The position numbers and the translations under genes are program-made. A model generated the notes under the pieces. That model saw only the letters and a list, made by a program, of their open reading frames with translations, ran no database searches and was not told the origin of the DNA. From Ceratodon purpureus (Eukaryota > Streptophyta > Bryopsida > Pseudoditrichales > Ditrichaceae): a stretch of 64,000 bases of DNA. Below are positions 20 through 22,325 of this stretch, in pieces (within the stretch, counting starts at the first letter, position 1; the number at the start of each line of letters is the position of its first letter). The stretch is from the NCBI GenBank assembly GCA_014871385.1, contig CM026426.1:16988183-17052182 (forward strand), written 5' to 3'.

Positions 20-27
20 CCTACAGG
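20..27. repeat. Left target-site duplication of the giant hAT
   Basis: CCTACAGG directly precedes the left terminal CAAGG and is identical to the 8-mer that follows the right terminus. Eight bases is the hAT-family target duplication length. Confidence 0.92.
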
Positions 28-56
28 CAAGGTTGTCTATTCCGTCGCGACGTGAC
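28..56 (+). repeat. Left terminal inverted repeat of the giant hAT
   Basis: Imperfect terminal inverted repeat, 24 of 29 matches to the right end. It contains the palindrome CGTCGCGACG followed by GTGAC. Two copies of GTCACGAC (81-88, 97-104) follow and may be subterminal transposase sites. Confidence 0.88.
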
Positions 57-229
57 CCTCTCGCGTCATAATGTCGGGACGTCACGACGGTGTACAGTCA
101 CGACCGGACGTCCCATTCGGTCTTTATCGCGATGGCCCAAATATTTACGGCAACATTTTCACTTTTACATTTCCGCCCCGGCGACACCTCGGACAGCCGA
201 TGTCCACGTCTGCGATAAAGGTGGTCTGA

Positions 230-560
230 TACTGGTGGGCCCCAGTACCAGTCTGCTTCGTCCGCGCCACCCTGTACGATCCGATACCCAGTCCGATGTC
301 CGATCCGACATCCGCTTTCCGCCGGATCGATGCCCTGTCGTCCGACGGGCCTTCGTAATCTCGTCCGCATTCCGGCATCCCTCAAGGCGCTTATCCGCCA
401 TCCGATTGCTGTCGGCTCCGATGAAGTCCGCCACATTCTACTGCACTCCTCGTTGTCGGACCCTGGTTCGGCCACTATCCCGACATTGTACCTTCGACGG
501 CCAAGTTCCGACCTGAGTTCGGGTCCGACGCATGTCGAATTCGGATGTCCGGCAACATAT
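230..560. repeat. GTCCGA/TCGGAC word cluster, left end
   Basis: Dense short repeats of GTCCGA, ATCCGA and their complements between the left terminus and the first cargo gene. The open frames here arise from this low-complexity composition and are not supported as genes. Possible roles are transposase binding or a promoter-associated repeat. Confidence 0.6.
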
Positions 561-698
561 CCCGGTGGACTCCCATCTAATGGACTGGCGTACTATGCTA
601 CGCCTGCTTTATCTTCATGGTCGTTCTAGGAATCGGTGCATTATTTTCCACTTCGGCAACGGCTCGTTGAAACGTGACACTTTGACTGCATTTCAGCG

Positions 699-1046
699 AT
701 GGCTCACAGTGCTGGGATTCCAGGGAGTCCTATCGCCTTGTTCGGGCCAGCCCAGTTTAGGAACGATTCTGACTTTAGCGACGATGAAGAGTATTTGGCG
801 ATCGTGGAGATGGGGACGAGAGTCAGGCCGAGTTTCTTACCTGCCATCCCGGGAGACGTCTCGGAGGGCATCATCTGGAAGATGTTGATGGTCGAGGACG
901 ACGACATCGAGAACTATAGAACATGCACACTCCTCCGTTGTGTTTGCAGGGGGTGGAGGAACTTTGTGGATATTCAGCCACGTTGGTACCAGAGCCGACT
1001 TGCATTCAACCTGCGGCCTTTTATGGATTCTGAAGACGAATCCTAG
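699..1046 (+). CDS. F-box-like protein, hAT cargo
   Basis: A 115-residue frame. A consensus-like splice acceptor (gactgcatttcag) ends just before the ATG, so the start is probably right after a 5'-UTR intron. The centre (about residues 50-100) has an F-box-like layout: an acidic start, DVSEGIIWKML, then LLRCVCRGWRNFV and W/Y/RLAF, resembling the ...vcr.Wr..v... core of F-box helices. F-box proteins bind Skp1 in SCF ubiquitin ligases. The match is by eye only, and no substrate-recognition repeat follows in this frame, so the protein is short or continues in unseen exons. A similar block occurs in the gene at 61,058-61,621, outside this element. Confidence 0.5.
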   Translation: MAHSAGIPGSPIALFGPAQFRNDSDFSDDEEYLAIVEMGTRVRPSFLPAIPGDVSEGIIWKMLMVEDDDIENYRTCTLLRCVCRGWRNFVDIQPRWYQSRLAFNLRPFMDSEDES

Positions 1047-1737
1047 GATATTGTTCGTTGAAACACTAAGGTGTAGGGTACCAAACATCGCAGTTTAGTA
1101 CATCAAGATCTGCAATGCTTAGGGTTTAGCGTAGTTGCAGGTCTGCGATGGTCGGATTGGTGTCGACCATTGTCCGGCGCCTATCGGACAACGGGTCGGA
1201 CACTGCATTGCAGCCGAATAAGGCTGGTTTATCATGATATTGAATCCGTAAGTATTGGAATCATGAAACTTTAATTGTTAAATCATTGATGATACTGTAA
1301 TCATACTTGTACATGCGTGGTCACTAATAAGTTCATGATGCCAATACATGTCCGGGGCCGTCTATCAATTCTGTTCTCGAGTGATACTCGTGTGATAGGG
1401 TGTATTATGAATGATATCATACTCCCTAGACATATCGAGCGTGTTGCGTTTTATGATTATACCGTCGGCCCTGTTATAACTGCGTGTACGTCTGTTCGCA
1501 ACTTGGGATTGATTTCATAATCCAAAATCTAGGTGGATTATAAGTTTTATTGCAACTGAGAGGGAAAATTAAATGCCCATTTGGAACTATGATGATCATC
1601 GCCTCCCTTCTTCTATGTGTTGAGCGCCGTTGGTAATGCAGCACCATTGCGGAAAACGTTCGTCCTGGGTGGTGTAGCGTTGTCTATTCTCCGCGCGCTG
1701 ACCTGCACCAACCTCAACTCATTTCGAGCCGTGCCCG
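1047..1737. other. Spacer between two cargo genes
   Basis: AT-richer spacer with a few TCGGAC words near 1,150-1,200. No gene can be supported here, though an exon of the neighbouring genes could be hidden. Confidence 0.4.
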
Positions 1738-2577
1738 ATGGCTTGCTCGCGCGAGTGCCCTCCATCTTGTATGGAAGGGAGGAGCCGGTGCCTAAGCGAG
1801 TTTCTCCGATCGGACTACGAATCCGCGGATTTGCCAGTGTGGGTTGATGCAGCGAGGAGAAGGGGAGGGGAGTTTCAACATGCGAAAGATGTGCCAAGAT
1901 CCAAGGAATGTCTACGGACTTGGCTTGAATCCGTGGACGCGTTTCAGGAAGAGTATGGCCTCTTGTGTCCCGACTTCTCCGCCGTGCCCCTCATGGAGAC
2001 CCGTCTGTGGGCGTCGAACTGGGACCCAGTCGCAGTGTTGCAGTTCCAATCCGTGGCGAATTGCACAGGCATCATGCATTCGATACGGGTGCGCATTCCA
2101 GCGGAACGGGTGGTGCAAAGTGGGGTCCGGGGGGACGAGGAGGGACGGAAGATCGTGCGGACACGGAGTGGGGGTCCATCGAGCGATCGAGTGCGTGAGG
2201 GGTGTGCATGCGCGCATGCCCGATGGTGGAGGGCTGGAAGTCGGACGAGGACAACGCCACTCCGCCGGGATAGAATCAGGGGACTTGGCCAGGTTTCATT
2301 GCATATGGAAGCGGGAGGCGCTGCGCTGGAATCTCGTAGATCCATAAGGGCGGATGCAGAATCCCCTAATGCGACACGCGGATCCTCCGGTGATGCTAAG
2401 AAGCGTAAGGTGGACGAGGAGGAAGACCACTCCGAGCATGAAAGTGACGAGACTCGCAAAATGACGGACTACGAGTTCCAACGGTATTGCTGGAGAACGA
2501 TGCCTTATCTCGGTGTGATGTCGGATATTGTGAACAAACAGGAGGGTTTTCAGCAGGGTTTTTGGGAAAACGCTTGA
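1738..2577 (+). CDS. Hypothetical cargo protein with acidic C-terminus
   Basis: A 279-codon frame whose start and middle are uncertain. The stretch at about residues 25-110 looks protein-like, with aromatic- and acid-rich composition (for example RTWLESVDAFQEEYGLLCPD). The middle (residues 115-190) is Arg-rich and may be out of frame. The last 60 residues contain a KKRKVDEEEDHSEHESDE tract, where KKRKV matches a classical nuclear localisation signal, and end in an ordinary mixed sequence. I do not recognise the family. Multiple exons or one frame disturbance are possible. Confidence 0.4.
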   Translation: MACSRECPPSCMEGRSRCLSEFLRSDYESADLPVWVDAARRRGGEFQHAKDVPRSKECLRTWLESVDAFQEEYGLLCPDFSAVPLMETRLWASNWDPVAVLQFQSVANCTGIMHSIRVRIPAERVVQSGVRGDEEGRKIVRTRSGGPSSDRVREGCACAHARWWRAGSRTRTTPLRRDRIRGLGQVSLHMEAGGAALESRRSIRADAESPNATRGSSGDAKKRKVDEEEDHSEHESDETRKMTDYEFQRYCWRTMPYLGVMSDIVNKQEGFQQGFWENA

Positions 2578-2953
2578 TTTTAATAGATGAGTGTTGCAGC
2601 TGTTAATGATTCTGCTCACTACCAATCTTGGAATGCTTAACTCTGGCCTTCTCTTTCTCTGACTATTTTGTATCTGGGACGAGAATTTTTGTAAATTTTC
2701 GGCCTTACTATAATATTTATTCCCCGTTTATTATTATGCTGATCTTCCGATGATCAGAGTATATTTATGTTTTATAATGATGGAGCTATTCCGAACGTCC
2801 CCCGTAGTTTGATATCTCCTTTCTGTTTCGGAAATATCCATCCAGTGCAGTTTCTAAGCAGACATGCATCTTCCAAACTCTTATCTAATTGCTAATGCAT
2901 TGCGTCGATAACGGAGATTCTCCGTATTTAAGCGGACACTATTTACTTCGTAA
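2578..2953. other. AT-rich spacer, no gene seen
   Basis: Intergenic sequence between a plus-strand and a minus-strand frame; probably the shared 3' regions of two convergent genes. Confidence 0.4.
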
Positions 2954-3412
2954 CTACCTAGATTTCCTAGCTTGTTCGATGTCATTCTTAAGTTTCAGGT
3001 ACTTGGATGGCCAAATCGCCTCCAGTTCCTCGACGTAAGTCTTAGGCTTTGAAGTTTCGGTCTCTACGGATGCGGCTGGTCTCCCCCGCGTGTTTCTTCG
3101 TATCGGACCTATCGCGGTCGTAGCAGCGGTGGAATGCTTCCTTCCCTGTGCTCGGGATGACCTCCCATTACTACTTCCTCCGGGCTTCCCGTACTCGTTG
3201 TTGTCCTTCCACTTGCATCCCTCGTTAGCTGGAATGCATAGACCTCCCCCCAATACTTGTACCTTGTCTACGCCGATGTCCTTGTCTCCACTGCCCGCTC
3301 CTGGAGCAGTTTCCTTATCACTGTCCCGAACGACTTCGTTCCTCTCGGGATTCCAAGAGAGCAAGAACTCTAATACCTCATCCTCTAGACTAGTTATGTC
3401 ACAAGGATCCAT
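2954..3412 (-). CDS. Hypothetical 152-aa cargo protein
   Basis: Starts MDPCDITSLEDEVLEFLLSW, a plausible acidic N-terminal helix. A long Gly/Ser/Lys-rich disordered centre follows, and it ends in a helical KTYVEELEAIWPSKYLKLKN-type segment. No family is recognised. It is convergent to the 1,738-2,577 frame. Composition fits a real protein better than the shadow frame on the other strand, but there is no homology support. Confidence 0.4.
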   Translation of the reverse strand: MDPCDITSLEDEVLEFLLSWNPERNEVVRDSDKETAPGAGSGDKDIGVDKVQVLGGGLCIPANEGCKWKDNNEYGKPGGSSNGRSSRAQGRKHSTAATTAIGPIRRNTRGRPAASVETETSKPKTYVEELEAIWPSKYLKLKNDIEQARKSR

Positions 3413-3529
3413 CTTGTAACTGGAGAGGACTCGTCCACAATAACTTGCGGGCTAACTGCATCAAAAGGGACCTGTGTTATCGCACTTCCCGTTTATATAT
3501 CATGGCATACCTCGCGCACTATAGTCCGC

Positions 3530-4250
3530 CATTCGCCCTTTGCCGGACGACGCTGCCTTGGATTGAATCCGAACGTCCGTTGCCTGCTGCCCCTATCCGA
3601 CCGTACCGGATCACCATCCGCGCTAGACCGGACCGGCACAATCTCCTGCCAAAGGGCGGATGTGCGAGGTTCGTATTATCCGGCGCCGTTTTCACTGTCC
3701 AGACACAATCCGCCTTTCCGAAGTCGGATTCCGCTTCGCAAAGTTCCGACCCCTGACCTATGCTCTAGAAGAACGACGCGATATTGTTTAATCGTTCCTG
3801 TAATCAACTATGTCCGCCTTCGCCGCAGTCCTGCCCCGAGGTCGCGTCCGACCGATTCCGGAACGCGCACGTTTCGATCGGCGGACCACGTCCGAGCCTC
3901 TAATCCGTCGGGGTACCTCGTCCATGTCCGATTGCGGAGTTACCACATTCCGCAAAACGATCGGATTTCAGGTAGTCCGCCCGTCCGTGGTTGATCCATC
4001 TCCGTACATGGGCCAATCTCACGGAGTGCGAACCACCTCCCCGATGTCAGCACACGACTGCCATAATATGCAGATCCTGACCATCTTTTTCGTACAACGC
4101 GGACCAAAATCGAATCTGGTTACTGGACCGCCATCGATCCCGCCCTCGTCCGACCTCGTCCGCAACACCCGGAACAACTCCGCGATGTTCCGCTTCCTGG
4201 TCCCGGACACGCTCGGGGAGTGCCATAAAAGATGCGACTCACCACGATCT
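3530..4250. repeat. GTCCGA word cluster upstream of the transposase
   Basis: Long intergenic block full of GTCCGA, ATCCG and CCGTCCG words and complements. Overlapping frames here (for example 3,563-3,994 and 3,810-4,346) read as low-complexity Arg/Pro/Ser sequence and are rejected as genes. It lies between the divergent 2,954-3,412 gene and the transposase, so it may be a bidirectional promoter region. Confidence 0.6.
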
Positions 4251-4525
4251 GTTCTCCCTTCTTTGCACTGCGTGTCTCAGGACTCTGGGGTCTCGTCTGA
4301 GGTTATTCTGCATGAGACCCAAGTGTGCATGAGGGGTCAAGCATAGCCCACTGGAACGGACCGTCCGAACTCCATCGGAGATCTGGAACATAATCAGGGC
4401 AAGTCCATCCCTCCACCCTCGTTCAACGACGCTAGACGTGCGTTGTCGGGCGCAATTTCTGTAATAGGTCCATCTCGCCTTAAATAGTGCGTTCACCCTC
4501 CAGATTCTTGCTTTCTGTCGCAGGC

Positions 4526-7500
4526 ATGCCGCGAAGAGTAGAGGCCTGGGATCAGTGGTGGCAAGACTTGGGCGTGGTGGGTGCGAGGCCTCAGAGACAG
4601 GTTAGGTGTAGAATTTGTAATGTGACTATTGTGTACCGTCGGGATAGAATGTTCGCTCACTTTGGATACAGACCTTTAGGTGGTCCAGGTAACTACAGTA
4701 TACAAATTTGCAGGTTGCTGAGTGCGCGGGTGAGGAGGTTGTTCGTAGACTGCGGAGGTGAAGTTCCTAGAAGAGAGCCCGATGATGTTCATGACATTGG
4801 CTTGGGAGGTGACGGGGTCCCAGATCCGGTATTACCTCAAGCTCCTGATAACGAGGGGGCGCGAGCGAATGATGGGCCAGCTATGCAGGAGCCTGATATG
4901 GCACCCCAGGGTTCTCCAACCAGGGAAATGCGTCAAGTGAATCTTGTGCAAGGATTCAATGCTTCCACGAAGCTTCGATTAGATAAAGTGTGGGCGACGG
5001 CATTCTACGAAGCCAATATCCCATTCAACGTTGTTAAGCATCCTGCCTTCATTAACGCCGTTCGGGAAACAGTGCGAGCCCGCTTCCCGGCATACCTGCC
5101 GCCATCGATGAATGCTATTCGCACAAAACTGTTGAGCGCGAGAAAGGCGGAAATGGTGAGACAAGTAAGGGAACTCACGGGCAATTCCACAGAGAAATAC
5201 GGTGTTACGATATGTGCAGACGGTTGGGACAACGTCCAGAGTCGTCCTCTTCTAAATGTTATCCAGAGTGGGACTAGGGGCGACGTTTTCCTTGGAACCA
5301 TAGACACGACGGGACACTACAAAGATAGCGATTACATCGCTTCTTAGATCCGTCCGTTTGTGGAACGGGTCGGACCGCAACATGTGGTCCAAGTTTGCAC
5401 TGACAATGCTCCGAACATGCTTGGATCCAGTCGGATGCTCGAGACACGATATCCTCACATTTATGTTCAAGGGTGTGCCGCACACTGCTTGGATCTGTTG
5501 CTCGAAGATTGGGGGAAGGAGGATTGGGTGAAGCACGTAGTTAGAAAGGCGAGACTTATTTGTCTATGGGTTAGAAATCATCATTCATCAATGGCTTTGT
5601 TTCGCAGGATGTGTCCCAATCTGACCATCCGTCTGCCCGTTGAGACGCGGTTCGCGACGAATTTCATTATGATCGAGCGTCTTGTGGAACTTCGGAATGC
5701 ATTTGAGAGAATGGTCATCGATCCGGCGTTTGCAGGTATTTTAGCAACCTATCCTGATGTGAACAGCTTAGTTGGGAAGAGGGTCCGCCTATTTCGGAAG
5801 TATGTGCGTGCGGACGGTTTCTGGAACACGTGCCATAACTTCTTATACATGGTCATCCCAGTGGTGAAGGCATTACGCCTTTTTGATGGGAAGGCACCTG
5901 CAATGGGCCTAGCTTGGAGGGCGATGTACGATTTGAAGAACCACGTCCGCAGTTTTTCCTCCCATCCGTTTCGATTGAACGCGGACCTGGCAGCAGACGC
6001 CATGGTCGCATTCGACCACAGATGGGCTATGATGTTGACAGATCTTCATTGGGCAGGTGCGATGCTCAACCCGACCCTACGTGGATGGGCGCCACTTCAT
6101 AACCACGAGGAGTCGAGGATCATTTTAAACCGGGTTTTTCCCAAGTTATCCTCTAACGAGGAGAATTACGTCCAGATCCTTGTCCAGTATCAGGATTTCC
6201 TCGAGAATCGGGAGGCATTTGCTGATTCAACCGATCCCCAAGCGCACGGCACTGCTATCCACGAATGGTGGGACGCAATGGGAGGTGGAGCCCGGGCTCT
6301 CCAAACAATAGCTAGACGTATACTTGGACAGGTTTGCTCCGTGTCTGCGTGTGAGCGCAACTGGAGCATGTACTCCTACGTGCACAGCAAGGTGCGCAAT
6401 AGATTGAAACATGTACGAGCGGAGGACCTCGTGTATATCTACACGAACATTAGACTCGTTCGTCACCGCCGGGCCCCGCGTCCGGCACAGTGGTATGGCT
6501 TAGAGGAGGTTCATTCCGACGATGACCTCGATGGCGAGGATCCGGACGAGGACGACGAGGAGGAAGACGTCGGACGGGGAGGAGACCATGTAGCGGACGA
6601 TGTGGCGGACGATGCCCGCATGGATGGTGTCGGACAGGGCGGATTGGGCATGGGGGGTGTCGGACTTGCGGACGACAATCCGCCCGTGAGCGACTTTGAG
6701 GAATCCGGATCGGACGACGCTGGATCTGACGGTGACGACGGTGGCGATGTCCGGATTGCCGAGCTCTTCCACAATATGTTCGACGCAGGACATCGCCGAG
6801 ATGCGGTTGAAGATATCCTCCGCCAGGATAGTCGCGTCGGACGGCAGGCGCATGCAGGAGGTGAGCGTCGAGCTCAGAGTCCGATCAACGAAGCAGAAAT
6901 ACAGTCGGACAGAGGAGATGGTAGTCCGGCCCGGAGGATACCTATCGTCGACACGGACTTCTCGCAGCCTTGGAGTGATTCTTTGTCATTCGGCCAGAGG
7001 GATTTCGACGAGAACCTGGCAAACATGGAGGGAGAGATTCGAACAGTTTTTCAGGAGGATTTACCACCTATCAATCGCCGGAGAGATGAAATGACGGAGG
7101 AAGATTCGAGAAGGAGGATGGCCGACCAGGAAGTTCAGACCCCGTCTGAGGAAATACGCCGTCCCATAACTCGAAGCCTTGCTAGTACGTCCGGAAGTAT
7201 GGCTGTAAACCAGCAACAGCCAGCTTCTGCCCTGCTCTCCACCCCCGTTGGTAGGGGTCACATCCTTCCGCAGCAGACCTCCGGCCGGGGACGCAGACGC
7301 CGAGCAGTAGGATCTGCTGTAACCAACGGTAGCTAGCCCGTTGTTCTGACCGCGTCTTCTTCACGCAGCCGGCCCGTGCGGAGAGGGGTTCCATCTACGT
7401 CGATCCGGGACCCTGCGGCACGTGCATCTAGTTGCACGACTGGGGAAAGAGTGTCCAGTGGTCCTGCAAGGGGAAGTGTTATCCAACGAACAACAAGAGG

Positions 7501-7771
7501 TGTAAAGCGAAAGAAAAGGTTCCAGGGGACTGCGTCGCGTTTCGCCCCGTACGAACCTGACAACTCCGAAGGTAGACGAGAACTCGATGAAAATGGAATA
7601 CGCGACCCTCAAGGATCCCGTCCAACGAAGAAGCTAGTTATCACCAGAGACGATGAGTTGCGGCTAAGCACTAGAAGTCCGCGGTCTGATGACGACATGA
7701 GCACAGATGAATCCGAGGAGGACCGACGTTGCGACGAAGCCAACGACCCAACTGTTCGGATCCGAGAGTGA
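4526..7771 (+). CDS. hAT transposase (BED-like finger to hATC), interrupted by two TAG codons
   Basis: One frame runs 4,526-7,771, broken only by TAG at 5,345-5,347 and 7,334-7,336. The ATG at 4,526 follows an acceptor-like ctttctgtcgcag. The N-terminus has a BED-like finger (W-x2-W, then RCRICN and AHFGY: C-x2-C...H). The catalytic core shows ADGWDN (first Asp), VCTDNAPN (second Asp), and the GCAAHCLDLLLED C-x2-H region. The hATC block near 6,260-6,460 has EWWDAMGGG, SACERNWSMYSYVHSKVRNR (catalytic Glu in CERNWS) and NIRLVRH. After it comes an unusual extension of more than 400 codons: a very acidic Asp/Glu tract (6,500-6,600), then Arg/Ser-rich disordered sequence to RIRE. Both TAGs would restore an open frame if read as Gln. 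The family usually excises and reinserts DNA using the terminal repeats seen at 28 and 22,317. Probably inactive in this copy. Confidence 0.93.
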
Positions 7772-7809
7772 ACGCTCGCCTAGTCTTCATACTACGATAT
7801 GAGGAGACC

Positions 7810-8230
7810 TCTATTCCGTACTTATCCGAGCCGTGTCCGACAACCTCGTCACCCGTCCGCGCATGAATCGGTCTGCTCCGCGACAGATGTGCGACCTCTG
7901 TCCGCCCACGATTAATATCCCCTTTTGGTGGCTCTCCGACCTCGTCCGCCGTGGATCCTTTAGTGTTCTGTGTCTTGCCCCTCCCACTCCCCCTCCTCGC
8001 ACTCCCCTCCTCGCGCCATCCTCACTTCTGTGTCAGACATGCACTCTTCGCTACCCCAGATATGGCACTGTCCGACTCACTGTCCGGCGCCTATACTGAT
8101 TGGATGATCTCGGAGGCTACTCGTCCGATCCCGTTGCCGGATGTCCGCTGCAGGTCGGACGGGTTGCATTGTAATCTTCTTCCCCGTTTGCGTACAGTTC
8201 ACTTCCCTTCCGTGCGTATTAGAGTGCACC
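7810..8230. repeat. GTCCGA word cluster downstream of the transposase
   Basis: GTCCGAC, GTCCGCC and CTCCGACC words recur between the transposase and the AT-rich island. No gene is supported. Confidence 0.55.
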
Positions 8231-8607
8231 CTCCGCGGTCCCTCAATTTTGTCTATTTTATCTTGTTCCAAATAATAAAAATATCATTATTTCGTAGAGC
8301 ATGCATCGTGGGAAGTCCCATTTGGTATAGTATTCCACATGTGGATGTAATTGTACGTGATTTACAAACAGAGTGAGAATCTGTATTATAAAAAACAAAT
8401 GGAATAAGGAAAACATTGGAATTTTTTGGCATCCGTTTTATAAAAGCCCAAATAACAAGTTATTAAAGCGTGTGACAATCATTTACTAATTTCAGCATTT
8501 ACATTCCAAGATTCCCGTAAAATCTCTAATCTTTGGAGATATATTTTTATATTTTTTTTTTAAATGTTTGTTTATGCAACCAACACATGAGTATAGTAAT
8601 TACATTG

Positions 8608-8692
8608 ATATAACAAACATGTGCATATAACAAACATGTGCATATAAGAAACATGTGCATATAAGAAACATGTGCATATAAGAAATATGTGC
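8608..8692. repeat. 17-bp tandem repeat, 5 copies
   Basis: Unit ATATAACAAACATGTGC; copies 3-5 carry AAGAAA, and the fifth also ATATGTGC. Five units fit 8,608-8,692 exactly. Confidence 0.9.
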
Positions 8693-8739
8693 ATACGTGC
8701 TCTCTAAACCCAAATCCCATTATCCTCATTGTTACAGAA

Positions 8740-8757
8740 GGGGGGGGGGGGGGGGGG
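8740..8757. repeat. Poly-G run of 18
   Basis: Eighteen consecutive G followed by T and GGGG. It could form G-quadruplex structure and is a place where sequence length may be unreliable. Confidence 0.9.
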
Positions 8758-8790
8758 TGGGGCAGCGGTGGGGTAGTGCTACCTCACAAT

Positions 8791-8856
8791 GCGGTAAGTT
8801 GCGGTACGTTGCGGTAAGTTGCGGTAAGTTGCGGTACGTTGCGGTAAGTTGCGGTT
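8791..8856. repeat. 10-bp tandem repeat, 6.6 copies
   Basis: Unit GCGGTAAGTT alternating with GCGGTACGTT: six full units then GCGGTT. GGTAAGT resembles splice donors, but the context is purely repetitive. Confidence 0.9.
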
Positions 8857-9639
8857 AAGATTTAATTGAAACGCCTTTCATATCCAAAACTTTTTGCCTA
8901 CATATGTTAAACCTTTTGCCTACACGCCAACCAACTTTGTCACACCTAGTTAAATCGTAGTATAATTTATACGGTCGTTATATTTTTTAAGGAAATTTAA
9001 TTGTCCTCATCGGAATTGTAGTTGGACTTCTATATTATTTTTTAGTCTACTTTCGCTCTTATGCCATCTAATTGATCATTGCCACCAATTAATTTTAATT
9101 TTAATATCGTTGCAATACTCCCGTTAGTAATCACTCTGTATTTATCGTTTTTAAAACCTAAAGGACAATCTGCCACATTTGGGCTTTTTTTGAATTTGGG
9201 CATGTACGTACGTAAGTTAGCTACAAGATATTTTGGTTAGATGTTAAAAAAAAAACCCCCAAGTTTTCAGAATCAACCTTGCTTCGAAGAGGAGCTGCTT
9301 TCAGGCAGTTTTGATGAAAAATACCCTCAAAACTTTAGGGCTTAATATATTCTTTAGCCGCTCAGTATTCTATTCTGTACTCCCACCTCATTCCTTTATC
9401 ATTCACGAATTTGTTTCTATATCATACTTATTTAAACATTATTTCATAACTTCTCTATAACTTTCCCTTATTTTTATTTCTTATTAAACGCTTATTCATC
9501 CTTCTTCATTCATAGCGTTTTCTTTTCTCCATGAATTTCGTATTTTTGTTTATTCTTGGCTGCGTGGTCCGTGACAGTCGCTGTGATCGGAGAATCGGAG
9601 CGATTGAGCCATCGGAACCTGCGTTCAACACTGGGAATT

Positions 9640-9780
9640 ACGCGGTCAGTGGGTCGGACAGGTCGGGAGCGTGCTCTCGTCGGATCCAAATGCACCCGGG
9701 TTCATGCGGACGGGATGCGGAGAGCGCAGATACGAAGGTCGGACGACGGATGGCAATGTCGGATTTGAGTGGACGTTCTT
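9640..9780. repeat. TCGGAC word cluster
   Basis: GGGTCGGACAGGTCGGG, GGTCGGACGACGGA and related words about 350 bp upstream of the small gene at 10,100. The overlapping frame 9,531-9,839 is not supported. Confidence 0.5.
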
Positions 9781-10099
9781 CTTTAAGTCATGCACTAACA
9801 TGTCTCCACTCCCACCAAAACATCAGTACTCATGATTAACATGCTTGATCAAATCATTGTCACTCTTTCCCTGCTCTCGGATATCATGTCAAATGCATTG
9901 TTCAGTCATTATTCACTCATTCTTCTACAACGGCAGTCTACTGTCTAGACGGTAGATTACCTATGCTCTTCCACGATATGCGTATAGTAATTTTGGTTAT
10001 TCTTGAGACTCTCGTTTTAAAATGAACAGGGTGCGTATTTTTGAGACTGTCATTTGAGACTCCCACTTGACTCTCTTGATTTCCGCATCGTCTCGTAGC

Positions 10100-12180: not shown

Positions 12181-12184
12181 CTCG

Positions 12185-12487: not shown

Positions 12488-15400
12488 ATGTCCACCGGAT
12501 CGGGCACTCCCTCTAGGAGGAGGCCGAGCAGACCGGGCGGAGATGAGTCCGCCGGCGGATCGCAGTCCGCCAGTGGTTCCGGGAAGAGAGCCCGCAAAGA
12601 ACTGGATTTGCAGCTGGACGTTTTCCACAATAGAGCAATACTGGTTGCTAATGGCTAGGAGGAAGTGCCAGAGCCTTGGGACGCTGCGACGGCTATGCAT
12701 TTTGTCGACTTTCCTCATTTCGATCGGCTTTGGCCAGATAGTTCGCACGCACAACACTGTAAGTCGAAGAACGCGAAATATGCATCCTTGACAGACGTGG
12801 ACGTGAAGTGGAGATTCCTCTGCATTCTTCGGGCAATTTCCAATGAATCGAAGTGGCCCAAGAACGAGATCCCGAAGGCTATTCTTTCCCTGATGTATGC
12901 CGAGCATGTGTTGAAGAAGAAGGTCGACTGGTCTACCTTAAAGACTCCAGGCTCCACTTTCGGAGGTCTAGGAGAGAAATTGACAGCGAAGAAGCCGGTG
13001 CACATACCTTATATAGATGTGCCCGAATGGTTCAAGCGTGATCCTTCCCTCGTTGAAGATCCAGGGGGTCCGATACCGACAGACAGGGAACCGTCGAGGG
13101 CCGGGAGACCACGGCAACGCACAATACAGAATGCCACGTACGAGGATCAGATGGCTGGCATGCTCGGATCCGATTGGCAGGGAAGTGGGTCGGACCCCAT
13201 CATTGGCGGGAGTGCGGGAGAAGGGTCGGGCGCGGCGACTGCATCCCATGCGAGGGACGGGGGGAACGATCGGACGGGATCGGCATGGGGACCATCCAAG
13301 GCAGGTGAGGAGAGTTCCGGGCCAGATGTGGCTATGGTCGGATTGGAAGAAGTCGTCAACGCGACAGTAGCCTCCTTTTCTGGAGCTGACATAGACCTTG
13401 ACATGGCGCACGGTGGGATCGAGAACGCGAATCCGGGTTTAGGTAGGTTGGACGAGGGTTTGGGTGCGTCGGACGAGGGTCTGGGTGCGTCGGACGAGGG
13501 TTTAGGTGGGTCGGACCACAGATTCGATGGGAGAATCGCTCCGACGACCTCACGGGATTGGCGGATGCCCGGCTCGGAACACGGGTTATTCGGACGAGGT
13601 GCGACAACTAGCAGTGCCCATCACGATCCTCCTCAGCCGAGAGGTGCAGCAAACGTTGTATTGGGAGCAGACCCGGTAATGCGGCGTCTGCTAGAGGAAG
13701 TTTTTGCCAAACATGACGCGGACGTTCGGGAGTTTAAAAGCAACAATAGGTGGTTTGGAACTGAAGATAGAGGCTCTTCGCGTGTCCGACAGCGGGGACC
13801 AGATGGCAGGAACATCGGACATAGAGTTGATGCGAGAAAGGGACGAGGCGCTGAGATCCGTTGAGAGAGCGGAGGCACGGGCTAATGCATGGGAAAAGAT
13901 ATGAAAGCCTCCGTGTACGCAGCGAAAACGGCCGAGGACCTGACCACGCAGTTAAATGGCCAACTCACGGACGCTGAGGAACGCATAATTGCGTTGGAAA
14001 CGGAAATGAGGGAGATGAGCGTCCGACTCGAAGATGCGGAAAAGCGAGCAATAGCGGCGGAAGCCACATCCACGGAGCGGGCTGTCCGACTAGAGGAATC
14101 CGAGATACGTGCGAAGGCAATGGAAGACGAATGTCGGAGATTGTCTCGCCAACTGGAGGAGGAGAAGAAGAACACATCGAAGCAAGGAGAGATAATCCTG
14201 CGAATGGAGTCCAAAATGGAAGATCATAAGAATAAGGCTTCGGACGCAATAGCTTTGGCAAAGAAAACACAGGAAGAACTAAACGAGCTCCGGAAAGTCG
14301 CTACGACGAGCGACAACTTGATACGTGCGGAGGGGCAGAGGCGGAGAAAGAAGCAAACAATGCCAAGGTGGTGGAATTGGAGACAGAGAACCTGCGACTA
14401 CTAGAGGAGGTAACACGGCTTGGGAAGGCCACTGGCGCTGTGAATGAAGGTAATGCCAACGATGATCCAATCCAAGGCTGGTCCGAGTCATTAACTCAGG
14501 AGCAGAAGGCATTACTCGTGGGTGCGCTCCAAAAAACGGAGGATATGTACATGATCGCTATACTTGCATTAGCGGGGCGACTCAGTACGAGAAGGAATTC
14601 GAGGCAATTCAGAAAGAGGTGGACGGAGAATGGACGATTGCGACACTTGCTCCTCACCTCCTGGCCGCCTTTACAGACGATGTACCCTCCGGAATGGGAG
14701 GACAGTCGGGGATGCGGTCCGGCACGGGCAGCATTCAGTGGGAGAATGTTGCTGAGATTGATCATCACTAGAAGCGGGATCAGTAATGGGGGATGGGCAA
14801 GACCAAAGAGCTGCGGGAGGCGCTGACTTGGCCCGTCCCGCACGAAATGACAAGTGACGGAACCAATTGCATCGTGTGCTTTAATCCTTTTGGCCCGGAG
14901 GGGTGCTACCAACTGGGGACGTGCAAACATGGATTTCACCCATATTGTTTAATATCCCGATGATGATAAGAAGACGTGCGAGTCCAATCTGCTCAGCCCC
15001 TCTCCATCCTCGCCTGTATTTGATATTCGGATTGAGGGATTTCATGCCCAGGGGCTGGGCGTACGATCCAAGAGAGTTCCCAGAGAACTTTCCGCTCGGG
15101 AATTTCGAGGATAAACCAATGGAGTGGGTCTGGCAACTACACACGTCGCAGCTCGAGATGTGGTACCAATTTCAGCCTACGGACTTGCTAAAGAGACCGA
15201 AGACCATTATGCAAGCGGCCGATTTGTTGTACCCAGGGAAGCCTGTCGATGATGGAATCAGCAATACTTTTACCAGATGTGCAAACACTACTGGGACAGT
15301 AGAAAGGGCCAGCTGGTTCCAGGGGAGAATCCAATCCAGTGAATTCACAAGGATTGCCTGCGACACCTTCCGACGTATTGGCAGGATTTCCGAACTGGAA

Positions 15401-15808
15401 TAGGGATGCTAACAGTAGGGACGAGATGGTTTACGAACAGGGTTACCACACGATGCAGCTAGAGATTCTCACTTTAGAAGAATTGTTATGCAAATTCTCC
15501 CCGCTACCAAGAAGTGGCTGGATAAGAAAGGACCGAGGCCCAAGCCGAAGGAGCCATCATGTCGTCAACGCTTGCTATCGAGTGGTGCTTCGACTTCAGG
15601 AACTTCAGGGGCCACACCAAGGAGCGCGACACCGCCGGGGAATTCCACGAGGAACGCGTCACGAACCCGTTTGAACCCAAGCCAGTCGGCACCTCCCTCC
15701 AGAGTCCCGACACCGCCGATTCCGCCGTCTGAGGGCCCAACGCAACCTGGCCACAATAGTGCAGCGTCCGGATCAGGTGATACATTGCAATTAGACGATT
15801 CGGAGTGA
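12488..15808 (+). pseudogene. Coiled-coil and RING-like zinc-finger gene, broken
   Basis: Coding-like sequence continues across 3.3 kb but changes frame several times. In order: a Ser/Gly-rich start; a mixed domain around 12,660-13,050; a disordered tract with a triple DEGLGAS repeat (13,451-13,513); a long heptad-rich coiled coil from about 13,750 to 14,400 (for example IALETEMREMSVRLEDAEKR); and a cysteine/histidine finger at 14,865-14,990 (CIVC ... TCKHGFHPYC ... C), which is RING-like with an incomplete last pair. Then come EWVWQLHTSQLEMWYQF and a Pro/Ser-rich tail ending DDSE. In-frame TAG at 12,656 and 14,769 and TAA at 14,784 fit Gln codons. Frame changes lie near 13,745, 13,905, 14,330, 14,575 and 14,955 and again near the 3' end; some could be introns. 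RING fingers usually bind E2 enzymes in ubiquitin ligases, but here that is inference only. Confidence 0.6.
13451..13513 (+). repeat. 21-bp in-frame tandem repeat, 3 copies
   Basis: Unit GACGAGGGTTTGGGTGCGTCG encodes DEGLGAS three times. Each junction makes GTCGGAC, the word that is enriched in the spacers of this element. Confidence 0.85.
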
Positions 15809-15979
15809 GATGAACTCCTAGAACTCTATAGAGTGATAACCATTAACAATGTTTTATTTTCTTTCATAACTATATAACCATTGCATAAACATAACTTCAT
15901 TTGGCTTTTTCCTTTCCCGAAGACTCACCTAGAGTCACCAACGCTAAGTCTGGATATATGCCATATAAAGAGTATCATC

Positions 15980-16220
15980 CCTTCAGTCCGCGCATGCGAC
16001 CGAGTCCGAGTCCGCCCATGCGTCTGAGTCCGAATCCGCCGTGCGTCCGGGTCCGAGTCCGCCCATGCGTCCGAGTACGCGTGGTGCAATCACCGATCGA
16101 CCCACCGTTCGCATCATAAGATTGCGAGCCCATGCGGACATAGCAACCCCCGTCCGACGACCCGCCTCGTCCGCATCACAGTCCGCCAAGTCCGACTGTG
16201 CGATCCGACCAACCCGCTAA
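15980..16220. repeat. GTCCGA word cluster upstream of the kinase gene
   Basis: Tandem-like series of CCGAGTCCGAGTCCGCCCATG-type units (about 30-40 bp spacing near 15,995-16,080) and further GTCCGA words to 16,215. It ends about 115 bp before a TATA box. Confidence 0.65.
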
Positions 16221-16332
16221 CCCTAATTCGCTCACAGGCCTAGATCCTACGTCTGCCACCCGACCGATCCCTTCCAAGGGTGATCGCCAAGCAATCAGTT
16301 ATTGTCCCAGATCAATGATCTTCCTCGTCTCC

Positions 16333-16340
16333 TATATAAA
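16333..16340 (+). promoter_or_regulatory. TATA box of the kinase gene
   Basis: TATATAAA in a tcctaTATAAAggtg setting, about 240 bp upstream of the kinase ATG. An acceptor (ttttcttcttttccag) ends at about 16,565, so a 5'-UTR intron between them is likely. Confidence 0.6.
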
Positions 16341-16571
16341 GGTGTCCCTTTATTTTCCGCTCACTTTCCCATCCTCTCTAGGCCTCTCGTTGGGATCTGA
16401 GACTCTGTTGCGTCCGTCGGGACAGCGGCAGTGCGCGGGTCCGGAGGGTCAGTAGAGCACGGGACCGATTTCAGAGACAAACCCTTGCTAATTTATATCA
16501 GGGTTCTGAACTGACTCGCCTACCGAAAAACCAATTGCTGATTGTTCTGTTTTCTTCTTTTCCAGGGTACC

Positions 16572-18506
16572 ATGGCAAACGAGAGTGGACGAATACATCA
16601 GGAATGGCGATCCGACGGGAGCCCCATCGGAGCACTCGGGGTGGGCGGGGGGCGTGGCGGAGAGAGAACCAGGTTTAATCAGGAATTCACCCCGATGGAA
16701 AACCTCGGAGGAGGCCACTTGCAGCGAGCGCGGGGAACGCGGGGTGGCCATGGTTCCCGGAGTCACGGCTCTCGTGCAACCCATGGATCTGGGGGGCGAC
16801 ACGGTGCGATAGGGAGCCACGCCGCGGAAAACATCGGCAGCCAAGGCACTAGGTCTGGTCCAGCGAGCTCGGGAAGTTCTAGCGGAGTACAAGCACCCGC
16901 CATGGAAATCGTCCCGCCACCTAAACCACTACCTAGGGTATTGTGGACATCGGCACCGTCCGACCAGTGTCCGCCGTCTACTGAAGAGCGTAGGGGAAGT
17001 AAGCGGGCAGGGGGGTCGCAAGGAACGGAGTCTGGGTCGACCGCGTCCGGTTCTGAGGTTAGGAAGCACAAGCATCGGAAGAAGGTAGCCGCGTGTGACC
17101 AGCATTCCACGGAGGCTAGGCTTTGCTGTAGAAAGATAATCCTGGACTGGTTTGCAAGCCACGACATGCCATACTTGGAGAGTACATTCTTGAATGATGG
17201 TCCGGCGGGACTCGAGAAAGCTTCGAATGCTCTGAGGTTACTACTGCAGGAAGGCATGGCGGGGGATGAGTTCCAGGAGGATAGAGGGAAGAGCAATTGG
17301 GGACAGTGGATCGAGGAACAGGTGCAGGAGCCATTGTTCAATTCGACAGTGCCATTTAACATGTTGTGTGGACCTGGTTCGGGATGTAGTGGGGGAAACT
17401 CCGAGCTCCTACAGAAGCTGGAGAATTGGAAAAGAGGTGCTATCCTCGCGAAGGGGAAGGGAAGGACTACACTGCCGAAGTTTGTCGGGAGAGCTCTGGC
17501 CGACGACATCGCTTCTCGGGACAGAAACGGTCTTAAGTGGCTACCGAAGGGTTCTTACGCCATCCCCGTAGACGAAAATAGTTTTCAGGGTTCGTTTGGA
17601 ATCGTGCGAAGGGTGCGAGTTGCAGAGGCATGTTTCATCCCGGGGTGGCTTCATTTTGCAGGGAAGACCATGAAGGTGACTGACTTCAAGACAAGTCGCG
17701 ATCAACGCTCTATCGAGGCAATGTCATGTCGAGTTGATGACCCTGGTGTGATTAAGCTGCAATACCTAAACCGGAAGACGCTAGAGTCGTACTCGCTATG
17801 GTGGAACGGAGGCTCGTTGAAGAACATGCGTGCGTTCGATTTGAAATTTGGGGAAACCCATGAAATGGAACTCCTCAAAGACGCAGGTCTGGACTTCGAG
17901 GCCCGGAAGAAGCTGGTCGTTTACCGAAAAAATCGAGCTCACTTGGCCTGGGCTCTCATGTGCATTGTGGATGTGGTACACGGCGAGGAAGTGCTACACT
18001 GCGACCTGCACCCTAACAATGTCATGCTCCACTTTCCAACAGACCGTGACGGAGCTATTTTCATAGGTATATGTGACTGGGGAATGGCTTCTTTCATGCC
18101 CGAATCGGCCCCTTCGTACTACGGAGTACAGAGCAAAGACGCGATAAAGAAGCACATGGAAATGTACAGTTGTGCCGCTCCGGAGTTGTTCCATGTGCAT
18201 GGCTCTAGAGGCTCATCCCAATCCCCACGTCGCATGGCAAAGCAGCACCCTCACACGTACAAATCAGAGTCCTATAGCGTTGGAGTACTCGCAAGGCAGA
18301 TTTACAACTCCGACTCGACATCGGTTCTATTTCAGCAGAACCGCGATCCTAACGGGGTTAAGATGCGCTTTGAGCAGGGTTTAGACGAAATGACCCAGAT
18401 CAACCCGGCTGCTAGACAAACCGTCACACACGTCGTGAGGACGTTGAAGTTACCACCTTACAATCTGCAAACACCGAATATGTGTTTCCGGGACACCCAT
18501 TCATAA
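16572..18506 (+). CDS. Intact protein kinase carried by the hAT
   Basis: An uninterrupted 644-residue frame from an ATG in strong context (accATGGC) just after a splice acceptor. Residues 1-190 are Gly/Ser/His-rich and disordered; 190-330 form an unrecognised domain. The kinase domain spans about 335-630. It has a glycine loop GSFG (G340-G343), a lysine in AGKTMKV (K368 as the likely ATP-binding Lys), a catalytic loop H476-C-D478-L-H480-P-N482-N483 in place of HRDLKxxN, and a magnesium motif D502-W-G in place of DFG. The later YSVGVLARQIY resembles helix F with the usual Asp-x-Trp replaced. The essential Lys, Asp, Asn and Asp are present, but the variant HCDLHPNN loop and DWG mark a divergent kinase. 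Likely substrates are Ser/Thr or unknown. It is notable that this cargo is open while the transposase is not. Alternative: an atypical kinase captured from the host. Confidence 0.82.
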   Translation: MANESGRIHQEWRSDGSPIGALGVGGGRGGERTRFNQEFTPMENLGGGHLQRARGTRGGHGSRSHGSRATHGSGGRHGAIGSHAAENIGSQGTRSGPASSGSSSGVQAPAMEIVPPPKPLPRVLWTSAPSDQCPPSTEERRGSKRAGGSQGTESGSTASGSEVRKHKHRKKVAACDQHSTEARLCCRKIILDWFASHDMPYLESTFLNDGPAGLEKASNALRLLLQEGMAGDEFQEDRGKSNWGQWIEEQVQEPLFNSTVPFNMLCGPGSGCSGGNSELLQKLENWKRGAILAKGKGRTTLPKFVGRALADDIASRDRNGLKWLPKGSYAIPVDENSFQGSFGIVRRVRVAEACFIPGWLHFAGKTMKVTDFKTSRDQRSIEAMSCRVDDPGVIKLQYLNRKTLESYSLWWNGGSLKNMRAFDLKFGETHEMELLKDAGLDFEARKKLVVYRKNRAHLAWALMCIVDVVHGEEVLHCDLHPNNVMLHFPTDRDGAIFIGICDWGMASFMPESAPSYYGVQSKDAIKKHMEMYSCAAPELFHVHGSRGSSQSPRRMAKQHPHTYKSESYSVGVLARQIYNSDSTSVLFQQNRDPNGVKMRFEQGLDEMTQINPAARQTVTHVVRTLKLPPYNLQTPNMCFRDTHS

Positions 18507-18779
18507 ATCACATGTGAGTATGCAAAACTCCTTAGAAACGTTTTGTCCAACGCGCAAGTACCGCTTCTTAGTGGTCTGACAATTTGAATATAACTATATC
18601 ATTCTGAACACCAGGGTCCGAGTTTGCATTCGCCCAGGTTAGGCGCATAGGAGGTCATGTACCGTCTCTGAACAGATCAATTTGTAAATAGAGTTTGTTT
18701 GTCAAATTCCTGACCCCGAAGCCATGATAGAGTGATTGTAATTCCACAATATTGGGACCAGAGCCCTAAACACCCAACG

Positions 18780-19140
18780 TTTATTCCACGCCGGACCCTC
18801 CGAAAATGGTCCGGCGACGCGGACCACCCCCTTGCCCACTGCCCCCGCGGATGGTGCCCGTTCACCTCGAATCCGTGCGATCCGACACCCTCCTGCAGTG
18901 ACCATTGTCCGACATCTAGTCCGCCCACTCCGCGTACTCGTTGTGCCCGCTCTCCGATCCGTCTTACTGGTGTCCGAATCATGCCCGCTTACCAGTCCGC
19001 CCCAGCCGCGTCCGCATATCATTGCCTTCCGACTCTAAACCCCAATCCGCATCCGCCTGTCCGGCCTCAATCGTCCGCTACATTAAACCACTTCGGTCTT
19101 CAAACCTGGCGACGAGGAATGTCGGAAAGACCGGACGACT
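18780..19140. repeat. GTCCGA word cluster upstream of the second RING-like gene
   Basis: Repeated GTCCGCC, GTCCGAC, ATCCG and complements between the kinase and the last cargo gene; frames here (for example 18,732-19,235) are low-complexity and rejected. The rest of 18,507-19,700 shows no supportable gene apart from a possible leader of the downstream gene after about 19,420. Confidence 0.55.
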
Positions 19141-19735
19141 GGCCGAGAAATACGGCTCGTGTCCCGTGCTTAGGCAGAGACAATGTCACAAATCCTCTTC
19201 AACAACGTGAAATTCAAACTGTGACCAACTCATGAACGAAAATTCCCAATAGAGCTTACGAACACGAGAGTTGATCGGTGTGACACTTCAGTAGAATTAC
19301 AAGGTGCATAGATTTTTTTGAATGCAATGAATTTTGTGTTGATCCATCTATTAAACCGTCTATTACCCACAGCCTACAGGACATTTGAAACACCATATTC
19401 ATGTTGCAATGATGGAGCCTAGTTGGATACACTGAGTGTTGAAGGAGGAGTACGAAGACAGGAAGTCCTGAAAGGTATGTTGTCAAGTCACAGTCGCCAA
19501 TCCGAACTCAACCTCTCAAATCACCATAATGAGATGACCACCTTGGCGTTAAATATGGCGGCTGCCTGTAGGGGTAGCCATGGCCAGGGCAGTTCCATTC
19601 AATCCACGCCATCGCTGAGAGTTTTGGTTGGAGTCGCCATTGCATTCTGGTTCCAACTTGTAGTTCGCTGGTCTGAGGTTGCAAGGGTCCGATCGAAGAG
19701 GAGGGATATACCTGTTGCGAGTGAGAGGGGTCAGA

Positions 19736-20917
19736 ATGGGAGAAGTTGGGAAGGAGAATTACTTTCACGTGAAGGTTGGGTTGCCAAATGCAGGTTTGGA
19801 CCCCGCCTTCGACTGCAACCATGTCAGCAATGAGGAGCTAAGGTCCATATTCGGAGAGAGGGTTCCTGGGAAGGGATATCTCGTCGACGGAGCGAATTCA
19901 GGAGAGGTCAAGGCGAGAGTGTTGGAGCTGTACCCAGCAATCTCTCAAATTCCCGAGCTTCCTGCTGGTTTGTTCCTCTCGGAGAGCTTCGCGAGAGCGG
20001 TCGTTTCGGAGGTTTTCCATCGCTACCCAATGAACTGGGCAAAGTATGCGGAGGATCGCTGGAGGGGTAAGAAAATCGAGAGCGGAGACAAACTCACAGT
20101 CCTGTATCGCACCCCTGACCGGAATGCCACCTACGTCGAAATCCTCTACAAGGGCCTGGAAGCCGAGATTGCGGACGCTGAGAAGGACTTCGAGACGGCC
20201 GTGGCAGCCCATAGTGTTGGACACGAACGGGCTGCGCTTCTGAGGCAGACGGCCAAGCCACCGCTCACGGATATGGACAGGTACAAGCTTCAGATCAAGC
20301 TGAGGTGCATTGAGGAGACTATGGACTCCTCCGAGGCGAAACTGCAGAAGTGGGGGGCGATGAAGTCCGTCGTCGAAGGCTTTGCTGATGAAACATTCCT
20401 GAGGTTCTTCGAGGACGAAATCCACGGCGAAGAACAGAGAATCTTGGAGGCTGGGGAGGAAGTGCAATGTATGAAGGAGGATTTAACTGAAACGTCGGCG
20501 AGGGATCTCGCGGTGGCCATCGAGGTTGAGAAACGCCTGTCTTCTGCAAAGCAGGATGCAAGGGACAAGGTGAGGGGCTTGAAAGAAAATCTCCGCCAGC
20601 TTCAGATATGGTCGTCTACATCAATGTTCCGTGCCCCCAGTCCTCGAATCGCAGCGCCCACTCAGAACATCGACTCAATTACCCTTACAGTGCAAGGCTG
20701 CTCCCTTTGTAACCAAGGGTTTCCGGCGATGGACCTCGTGACTGCGTCGTGCGCTTGCCCATACCACCCGTGGTGCGCTGCAGTGCGGACTTCGCTTAGT
20801 CAGAACTGCGCAAGATGCGGGGAGCATTTCGCAGAGAACTGGTTGAACAGCTTCGGCTTTTTCAAGTGCGAAGGTACGTCAATGTCGCGCATGTGCATTG
20901 ATTTCCAGTATTGCTGA
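19736..20917 (+). CDS. Coiled-coil protein with C-terminal RING-like finger
   Basis: The ATG at 19,736 follows ggggtcag. The product is about 393 residues in this frame, but a donor (GAAG|GTACGT) at about 20,873 suggests coding exits into an intron there. An acceptor (tttgctacaacag) at about 21,076 opens a plausible next exon to the TGA near 21,281. Residues 1-140 are a mixed domain (for example SIFGERVPGKGYLVDGANSG). A coiled-coil-like Glu/Lys/Ala-rich region occupies about 140-305. The finger is at about 325-375: CSLC, then SCACPYHPWC, then CARC (C-x2-C ... C-x-C-x3-H-x2-C ... C-x2-C), a RING-like spacing. Architecture parallels the broken gene at 12,488-15,808. An E3 ubiquitin-ligase role is inferred only from the finger. 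Confidence 0.65.
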   Translation: MGEVGKENYFHVKVGLPNAGLDPAFDCNHVSNEELRSIFGERVPGKGYLVDGANSGEVKARVLELYPAISQIPELPAGLFLSESFARAVVSEVFHRYPMNWAKYAEDRWRGKKIESGDKLTVLYRTPDRNATYVEILYKGLEAEIADAEKDFETAVAAHSVGHERAALLRQTAKPPLTDMDRYKLQIKLRCIEETMDSSEAKLQKWGAMKSVVEGFADETFLRFFEDEIHGEEQRILEAGEEVQCMKEDLTETSARDLAVAIEVEKRLSSAKQDARDKVRGLKENLRQLQIWSSTSMFRAPSPRIAAPTQNIDSITLTVQGCSLCNQGFPAMDLVTASCACPYHPWCAAVRTSLSQNCARCGEHFAENWLNSFGFFKCEGTSMSRMCIDFQYC

Positions 20918-21282
20918 ATCCGTTGCGGAACCGAATATGAAAAACTTCCAACTTATGAGTCTGTATCTTGCATCTGATAAGCAATTTTTTTTTGAAATTC
21001 GTTTTTGACATGATACTGTGCATTAGAGTGTCCATTGCGCTGGTCCGGAACTGATATCTGAGTTTTGCTACAACAGCGCGAGTGGGGATTGGCAGTGCGC
21101 CGGATACCGGAGAGGGAGAAAAGAGGCGCAAGCATTTGAACTCGGACATTGGAGGGTGGAATTATGCGCGCAAGGACAAGTCGACCTCTACATGCCGCCG
21201 GAAATCAAAATAGTGTTTTCCACCTCCGATTTCATGGAAGACTGCGACTGTATCTCAGCGACGGAATGGATTGCATTGTGAC

Positions 21283-21659
21283 TACGCAGTGAATTTTCTT
21301 ACAGTAGCTTAGACACTTTACCTTTTTTAAACTCCCAACTGTGCATCCGAACCAGGAAAACTTTGATCAAAGACTGTTTGTAAGGAATTTTCGGACGTGA
21401 ACTCGTTTGATAACTAAGCTACTATCATGGAAGTCTTGTTTTTTATAAGGAACTTTCAGAGCTATACTCTTTCACTGACTAAACTTCTACCAAGACAGCC
21501 ATGTTTTAATGGATACATCTCGATTACAATATATAATCTGATGGAATTCAATATCGGTTTGAGAAGTAGTTGGTCAGTGTGTCACTTCAGTAGTGTCGGA
21601 TGGTTCGAATTTCATATTTGCTCGTGAAGCAGTTGAGCTGTGTGAAAATTGAAGACAAT
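21283..21659. other. 3' spacer, no gene
   Basis: AT-rich spacer after the last cargo gene; no supportable frame. Confidence 0.4.
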
Positions 21660-21965
21660 ATGTTCCCAATCACAGCATCGCGGACCACCCTGTATGTGTT
21701 CGTTCACATCGCGTCCGCCCGGTCCGAAAGCCTCCGTCCGCAATACGATCGGCATGAAGTCCGCCCACCCGGATACGCATTATCCCGCCTATAGGCCCGT
21801 CCGAGCCATGTTCCCAACACCCCACTGCATCGCGGACCACCCTGTATGTGTTCGTCCACATCGTGTCCGCCCGGTCCGACAACCTCCGTCCGCAATACGA
21901 TCGGCATCAAGTCCGCCCACCCGGATACGCATTATGCCCGCCTACAGGCCCGTCCGAGCCATGTC
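21660..21965. repeat. ~150-bp direct tandem duplication near the right end
   Basis: The block starting ATGTTCCCAA ... GCATCGCGGACCACCCTG occurs at 21,660 and again at 21,808. The offset is 148 bp at the start and 152 bp after a small indel. Both copies are rich in GTCCGCC/GTCCGA words, and similar words continue to about 22,150. Confidence 0.85.
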
Positions 21966-22288
21966 CGCCTACCAGTCCGGCCCACTCGCGGACTTCCCCG
22001 GCATTCAACGGTCGTGTTCCTCCTCAATCGTCCGCCAGGCCTAAACACGTCCGCCCCTGAACCCTAAATCGGTTGCCCGTCTCTGTCCGCCCGACTCCGC
22101 CGTCGGAACTCCTCCGGACATCCACGTCACCGTCCGGGGCCACCGCAATTCCAAGTAGGACGCCACGTAACGGGGCCGAGTAACTCTTTTACCCACGCTA
22201 CTCGCAGGACCTAAAGGACCCTACGCTGACCCCTATTGTGACGTCGGAGGACCCCCGTCACGACCCATTCAAACGTCGCGACGGAAAA

Positions 22289-22317
22289 GTCACGACCCGA
22301 CGGCATAGAAAACCCTG
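22289..22317 (-). repeat. Right terminal inverted repeat of the giant hAT
   Basis: Reverse complement of the left terminal repeat with five mismatches; the element ends ...AAAACCCTG. Just inside lie CGTCGCGACGG (22,274-22,284) and GTCACGAC (22,257-22,264). A further GTCACGAC (22,289-22,296) is inside the repeat itself. These mirror the left-end motifs. Confidence 0.88.
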
Positions 22318-22325
22318 CCTACAGG
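22318..22325. repeat. Right target-site duplication of the giant hAT
   Basis: CCTACAGG follows the terminal CCCTG immediately and is a perfect copy of the left 8-mer. Confidence 0.92.

Follow-up and report, generated by a model that had tools for sequence, protein, structure and literature searches.

A segment of 22.3 kb at the start of the window (the whole stretch of 64,000 nucleotides analysed here) carries a hAT transposase gene together with several other genes. The locus raises the question whether a hAT transposon can move many kilobases of its own genes as one unit. The common view of hAT elements is that they are small. The host is very probably the moss Ceratodon purpureus, or else a very close moss. 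We find it very likely that the segment belongs to a multi-copy hAT family of ~23 kb, which moves as one unit and brings along accessory genes with putative functions.

Organization and ends of the element

The features of the element, by window position and strand, are as follows.

20..27, no strand: left target-site duplication, sequence CCTACAGG
28..56, + strand: left terminal inverted repeat (CAAGG here, CAGGG in other copies)
28..22317, no strand: dispersed GTCCG/CGGAC array, 172 sites across the element
81..104, + strand: two subterminal GTCACGAC motifs, left (starts 81 and 97)
4526..7771, + strand: hAT transposase gene (DUF659, Dimer_Tnp_hAT), broken
7803..9728, no strand: AT-rich block, which copy c10 lacks and c6 and c8 have at least in part
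10102..10714, + strand: small open reading frame (ORF) with one in-frame stop (10418-10420), its first part without a Pfam match
12488..15808, + strand: gene 2, coiled-coil/RING-H2 protein, broken in the window; 3' limit set from the spacing in intact copies
~14868-14996: RING domain of gene 2
15985..16076, + strand: 24-bp tandem repeat with GTCCG motifs
16572..18506, + strand: protein kinase gene, open, 644 aa (Pkinase, 4.5e-9)
19736..20917, + strand: gene 4, open, 393 aa, with a RING-like Cys/His cluster at the C-terminus of its product
21671..21938, + strand: 116-nt repeat with GTCCG, present twice (94% alike, 152 bp apart)
22257..22296, + strand: two subterminal GTCACGAC motifs, right (starts 22257 and 22289)
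22289..22317, - strand: right terminal inverted repeat
22318..22325, no strand: right target-site duplication, sequence CCTACAGG

The copy in the window spans positions 28-22317, and the perfect 8-bp duplication that an earlier note had seen on either side of it lies directly outside the terminal inverted repeats (TIRs). The TIRs agree at 24 of 29 positions, as had also been claimed, and this score is the best among 52,022 pairs of the same 8-mer at least 200 bases apart in the 64-kb window. The runner-up pair (22/29) lies inside AT-rich repeats at ~25.8-26.9 kb, and the top pairs in five mononucleotide shuffles reach 18/29 or less. In addition, the terminal 20-mer, at up to three mismatches, occurs in the 64 kb at two sites only, which are the two ends (chance mean 0.02); the same scan finds no second terminal pair within the element.

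The earlier note gave the termini as CAAGG.../...CCCTG. Of the copies compared, the window copy alone has CAAGG at its left end; all 14 copies with paired ends have CAGGG there. The sequence CAGGGTTTT... at both ends of these 14 copies matches 7 of the 8 positions of the hAT TIR consensus [T/C]AGNGNNG when compared by eye.

All four occurrences of GTCACGAC in the first 22.4 kb sit close to the element ends. An 8-mer with four occurrences in the two 300-bp ends arises in 3 of 500 mononucleotide shuffles; among as many as 300 internal pairs drawn at random, 17 contain one as well. The sharp change in GC content noted previously is clear at the right end; on the left side, just 27 bases of the window lie beyond the element, too few to show such a change.

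Copies of the unit in the genome

When the first 600 bp are used to search the genome of the host, 252 candidates emerge, 40 of which were scored. The 39 scored left ends other than that of the window are 96-99% identical to it, and 37 of them start no more than 7 bases outside the left terminus (the exceptions start 19 bases outside and 4 bases inside). Eighteen of the 40 scored copies are on the window's own contig (C6), which makes up 30% of the genome.

The 20 best other copies, chosen by left-end similarity, were examined 14.5-24.5 kb inwards. For convenience, individual copies are referred to as c1, c2 and so on. The interior is collinear with that of the window in 18 of the 20. The same right terminus is reached in 14, in c7 via a short extra stretch, and the resulting paired units measure 22,268 to 24,544 bp. 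Ten of these units are flanked by perfect 8-bp duplications, all mutually different; the other four have imperfect ones (7/8 in c2 and c16, 6/8 in c9, and 1/8 in c7). In the remaining six copies (c3, c5, c6, c12, c15, and c17), the right end is absent from the stretch examined. Two of them, c3 and c15, have no interior match there, and the other four match part of the interior. These six copies may be truncated or carry inserts; extra inserts are seen in some copies, for example c6 and c11.

The combination of collinear interiors, paired ends, and different duplications indicates that the cargo was not assembled by separate insertions at later times. The RING protein gene, the kinase gene, and the second zinc-finger protein gene move as one unit, as the earlier note had proposed: the 14 paired copies share both termini and the interior. 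The ~23-kb unit is very probably a real hAT transposon family.

Two other accounts of the copies have to be weighed. In the first, a small hAT has been swollen by later independent insertions and captured pieces of host genes, forming a Pack-hAT or a nested cluster. The absence of the AT-rich block (7803-9728) from c10 and the extra inserts in c6 and c11 would fit such a history. However, the interior is shared in order by 18 of 20 copies, the order of transposase and RING gene is kept in a divergent relative (L001, see below), and several copies have the accessory ORFs at full length. For the part with the kinase, the RING gene, and gene 4, the account is refuted by the collinear copies with different target duplications, and we regard it as very unlikely overall. 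Pack-TYPE hATs consist of captured host gene fragments without a transposase of their own, whereas this element has its own transposase inside and full-length accessory ORFs. As for the AT-rich block, it was either deleted in c10 or is an old insertion in the others, and no convincing pair of target-site duplications or TIRs that would mark a nested insertion is found in the AT-rich part. A short near-identical sequence is present at both edges of the block in the window.

In the second account, which we consider extremely improbable, a segmental duplication or an assembly repeat mimics many transposon copies, as the 21 available bases shared by c2 and c7 beyond the right end might suggest, but it is refuted for ten copies by distinct perfect duplications and unrelated flanks, and the other likeness among the 22 flank stretches compared, which are mostly unrelated, consists of a simple-repeat match between c3 and c8 and a 72% match of c20 to the window at a 50-base offset. 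The match of c20 is between its right flank and window positions 22368-22899 (546 columns), and the offset indicates two insertions at different places in related repeats. The 21 bases are identical in c2 and c7, which lie on different contigs (C8 and C6, respectively); together with the lack of a matching duplication in c7, this could reflect a rearrangement or a shared target.

Local hopping is a habit of hAT elements. The nearest copy, c1, is 99% identical to the window copy and is located ~141 kb away on the same contig, which fits local hopping.

Transposase and accessory genes

The hAT transposase reported in the earlier note is present, with Pfam matches to DUF659 (7.4e-11 and 9.4e-20) and Dimer_Tnp_hAT (3.4e-8); in the window it is interrupted by two in-frame stops (5345-5347 and 7334-7336). 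The residues D, D, and E, which we take to be the catalytic triad, are present in the window and invariant in 11 of 11 aligned relatives. With an 8-bp duplication, short TIRs, a DUF659/RNase H-type core, and a hAT dimerisation domain, the element has the hallmarks of the hAT superfamily. Among the named relatives, the one closest to the transposase is the Ceratodon purpureus protein M758_UG198100 (521 of 542 aligned residues identical). The U in this name hints at the U sex chromosome, and the contig of the window is probably a sex chromosome, judging from its size.

No full-length copy with an intact transposase is seen among those examined; support for an intact transposase comes from P0001, a protein without genomic context that is uninterrupted and identical to the window transposase at 1039 of 1063 residues, and from the open C-terminal parts in c10 and c6.

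A stop and frame changes disrupt gene 2 in the window; in c8, c10, c18, and c20 (4 of 15 copies) it is open and encodes 1,106-1,107 aa. Its RING-H2 domain is significant in L001 (4.6e-9) and below the cut-off in c8 (3e-5; 24.6 versus 27.3 bits).

The kinase gene is open in 9 of 15 copies, including that of the window. All 12 aligned relatives retain the glycine loop, lysine, glutamate, asparagine, and DWG aspartate, and 11 of them also retain the catalytic-loop aspartate, the roles of these residues being those that we presume from kinases in general. Of the variants common to at least two copies, 17 fall on the third codon position, 7 on the first, and 3 on the second, as would be expected under purifying selection. 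None of the 33 matches to the kinase bears a plant name; the single named one is from a metagenome-assembled genome (MAG) of a lichen fungus. Against solved structures, the single kinase sequence has no match, and a kinase profile gives weak matches to the kinase core. Structure models are poor for both the kinase (mean pLDDT 47.5) and gene 4 (mean pLDDT 63.8).

Gene 4 is open in 12 of 15 copies, again including that of the window. It has no Pfam match, and relatives at 37-38% identity retain the same Cys/His cluster. A profile match of gene 4 to the RING of gene 2 (probability 36%) is suggestive of a relationship. Shared variants lack a codon-position bias in gene 4 (14, 14, 14) and in the N-terminus of gene 2 (9, 13, 12).

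The accessory genes are thus inherited parts of the element, on the same strand as the transposase, and the kinase and RING-like genes of the earlier note are borne out, the latter being two in number. Its F-box-like gene is not: the match stays below threshold in two scans (E 0.0064, with 16.8 bits where 20.5 are required; E 0.076), and we reject it. In the left ends of eight copies, the longest ORFs (top five per copy) are ~120-164 aa. A viral origin is likewise rejected, as four scans of viral contigs, with the transposase, the kinase, gene 4, and gene 2, confirmed no relative. A plasmid collection contains no match to the transposase DNA or the kinase protein.

The window copy is partly decayed, with the transposase and gene 2 broken and the kinase gene and zinc-finger gene 4 open. 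Since it lacks an intact transposase and RING gene, it could be mobile only with proteins from other copies.

The association of transposase and RING gene appears to be old. L001 (CADCWO010000266.1), a contig of 6,291 bases, encodes a transposase C-terminus followed on the same strand by an 875-aa RING protein, both homologous to those of the window and in the same order. The transposase cores of L001 and the window agree at 72% of the amino acids but only 40% of the third codon positions, which points to constraint on the protein. L001 is filed under a cyanobacterial MAG, yet carries eukaryotic transposon genes; it is presumably stray eukaryotic DNA, a contamination from a biocrust eukaryote. 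In addition, one relative of the transposase (46%) and one of the kinase (44%) are each encoded on a contig 15,563 bases long. A shared contig size of at least 10 kb arises by chance with a frequency of ~0.002 in a simulation based on 118 of the 120 listed transposase matches (172 found), P0086 (no size) and P0110 (a repeat) being left out. A second shared size, 2,408, was set aside as too short for both ORFs.

The family resembles plant hATs of the Ac/Tam3 group in its 8-bp duplication, its termini near [T/C]AGNGNNG, and its DUF659 and hAT dimerisation domains (PMC6027215). It differs from them in its length of 22-24 kb and its conserved kinase and RING genes. In a 2018 survey of 276 plant hAT sequences, the longest consensus is that of Gulliver (7,144 bp), about a third of the length of the present units, and no hAT was found in Physcomitrella (PMC6027215). 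The term hAT appears nowhere in the main text of a 2019 review of giant eukaryotic transposons (PMC6431247). Among the papers listed by a literature search, with Repbase, bioRxiv, and most subscription papers outside it, none deals with a giant or multi-gene hAT from a plant or moss.

Some fungal hATs also carry an extra gene (PMC6710886; PMC12730594). As described in these sources, histone H3 carriers are ~9.5 kb and hold a captured, mostly truncated histone gene (PMC6710886), and the TET/JBP hAT7 elements have 7-bp duplications and a dioxygenase gene (PMC12730594), whereas the family of the window carries several other genes. ToxhAT, a fungal cargo element first called a hAT, has been reassigned as likely Tc1/mariner (PMC12506042).

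Like the fungal Starships, the window element is a large unit moving several genes. However, it has a hAT transposase, an 8-bp duplication, and TIRs, and a DUF3435 captain, which a Starship has near one end, is absent from the ten + strand ORFs scanned and from the six frames of 28-4487. Lanisha elements, which are cut-and-paste DNA transposons as well, are reportedly present in Ceratodon. Their transposase, in contrast, resembles EnSpm/CACTA (PMC12730594, which refers to Maumus, McDaniel and Carey 2020). Starships, for their part, are described as using a DUF3435 tyrosine recombinase (PMC12506042).

The GTCCG array and possible functions of the accessory genes

GTCCG/CGGAC is the most over-represented pentamer in the element (z 17, 100 shuffles). 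Its 172 sites compare with 56 (s.d. 7) in 200 dinucleotide shuffles, an approximately threefold excess; a third-order model, which predicts 117 sites, leaves less of an excess. The array ends with the element, the flank having 22 sites where 36 are expected. The excess peaks in three noncoding intervals (16 versus 3.2, 13 versus 2.7, and 23 versus 3.9 expected) and several tandem repeats of the element contain the motif. Among the genes, the excess is present in the transposase and gene 2 and absent in the kinase and gene 4. Fourteen other copies have 95-118 sites per 14.8-kb stretch, some flank included, and L001 has 17 versus 7.8 expected.

VANDALs are MULEs. The present element has a hAT transposase instead, and shares with them accessory genes beside the transposase and a short motif that is dense in noncoding DNA and tandem repeats. 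In Arabidopsis, the VANDAL protein VANC targets short motifs that occur in noncoding regions and frequently form part of tandem repeats (PMC5735166). The motif differs, and the two systems are likened by motif pattern, not by VANC homology.

This likeness is the basis of an anti-silencing model. The transposase would cut and paste the unit by acting on the termini and the subterminal motifs. With less certainty, one or more accessory proteins might target the GTCCG array of the element itself as well as host factors, the latter by phosphorylation and ubiquitin tagging. The outcome would be that the element stays expressed despite silencing, as VANC achieves for VANDAL. That the accessory module counters silencing is a tentative proposal, which we think possible but doubtful. 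The fuller reading, a giant self-equipped plant hAT whose array marks its own DNA and in which the kinase and both RING-type proteins make up a module for anti-silencing or host reprogramming, is put forward with the same reserve.

The chances are slightly better than even that the unit is real and its kinase and RING genes serve other ends, such as controlling transposase activity, influencing which DNA repair route follows excision, or benefiting the host. The array would then be a by-product, or a motif of the transposase or of a promoter. Several points would suit such a function: the roles of kinases and RING proteins are diverse, the array extends into the coding parts of the transposase and gene 2, and subterminal motifs with a different sequence exist. 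On the other hand, a motif that is dense over 22 kb, with its peak in noncoding DNA and tandem repeats, fits VANC-like targets better than a terminal binding site.

If the anti-silencing model is true, VANDAL-like sequence-specific anti-silencing would have been invented independently in another transposon superfamily, and the family would offer a system, probably in moss, for asking how transposons counter silencing. Whatever the function, the existence of a 23-kb hAT in many copies, its kinase and RING genes conserved, means that a hAT can carry many kilobases of its own genes. Kinase and RING ORFs of this kind, where a moss annotation lists them, may belong to transposons.

Beyond the element, the AT-rich flank contains a 127-bp tandem repeat of ~4.4 copies at 25355-25927. 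Farther downstream, at 33371-55764, two 11.2-kb units lie head to tail. They are 99.95% identical, each with retrotransposon gag/protease-like ORFs, and represent either a recent tandem duplication or an assembly effect.
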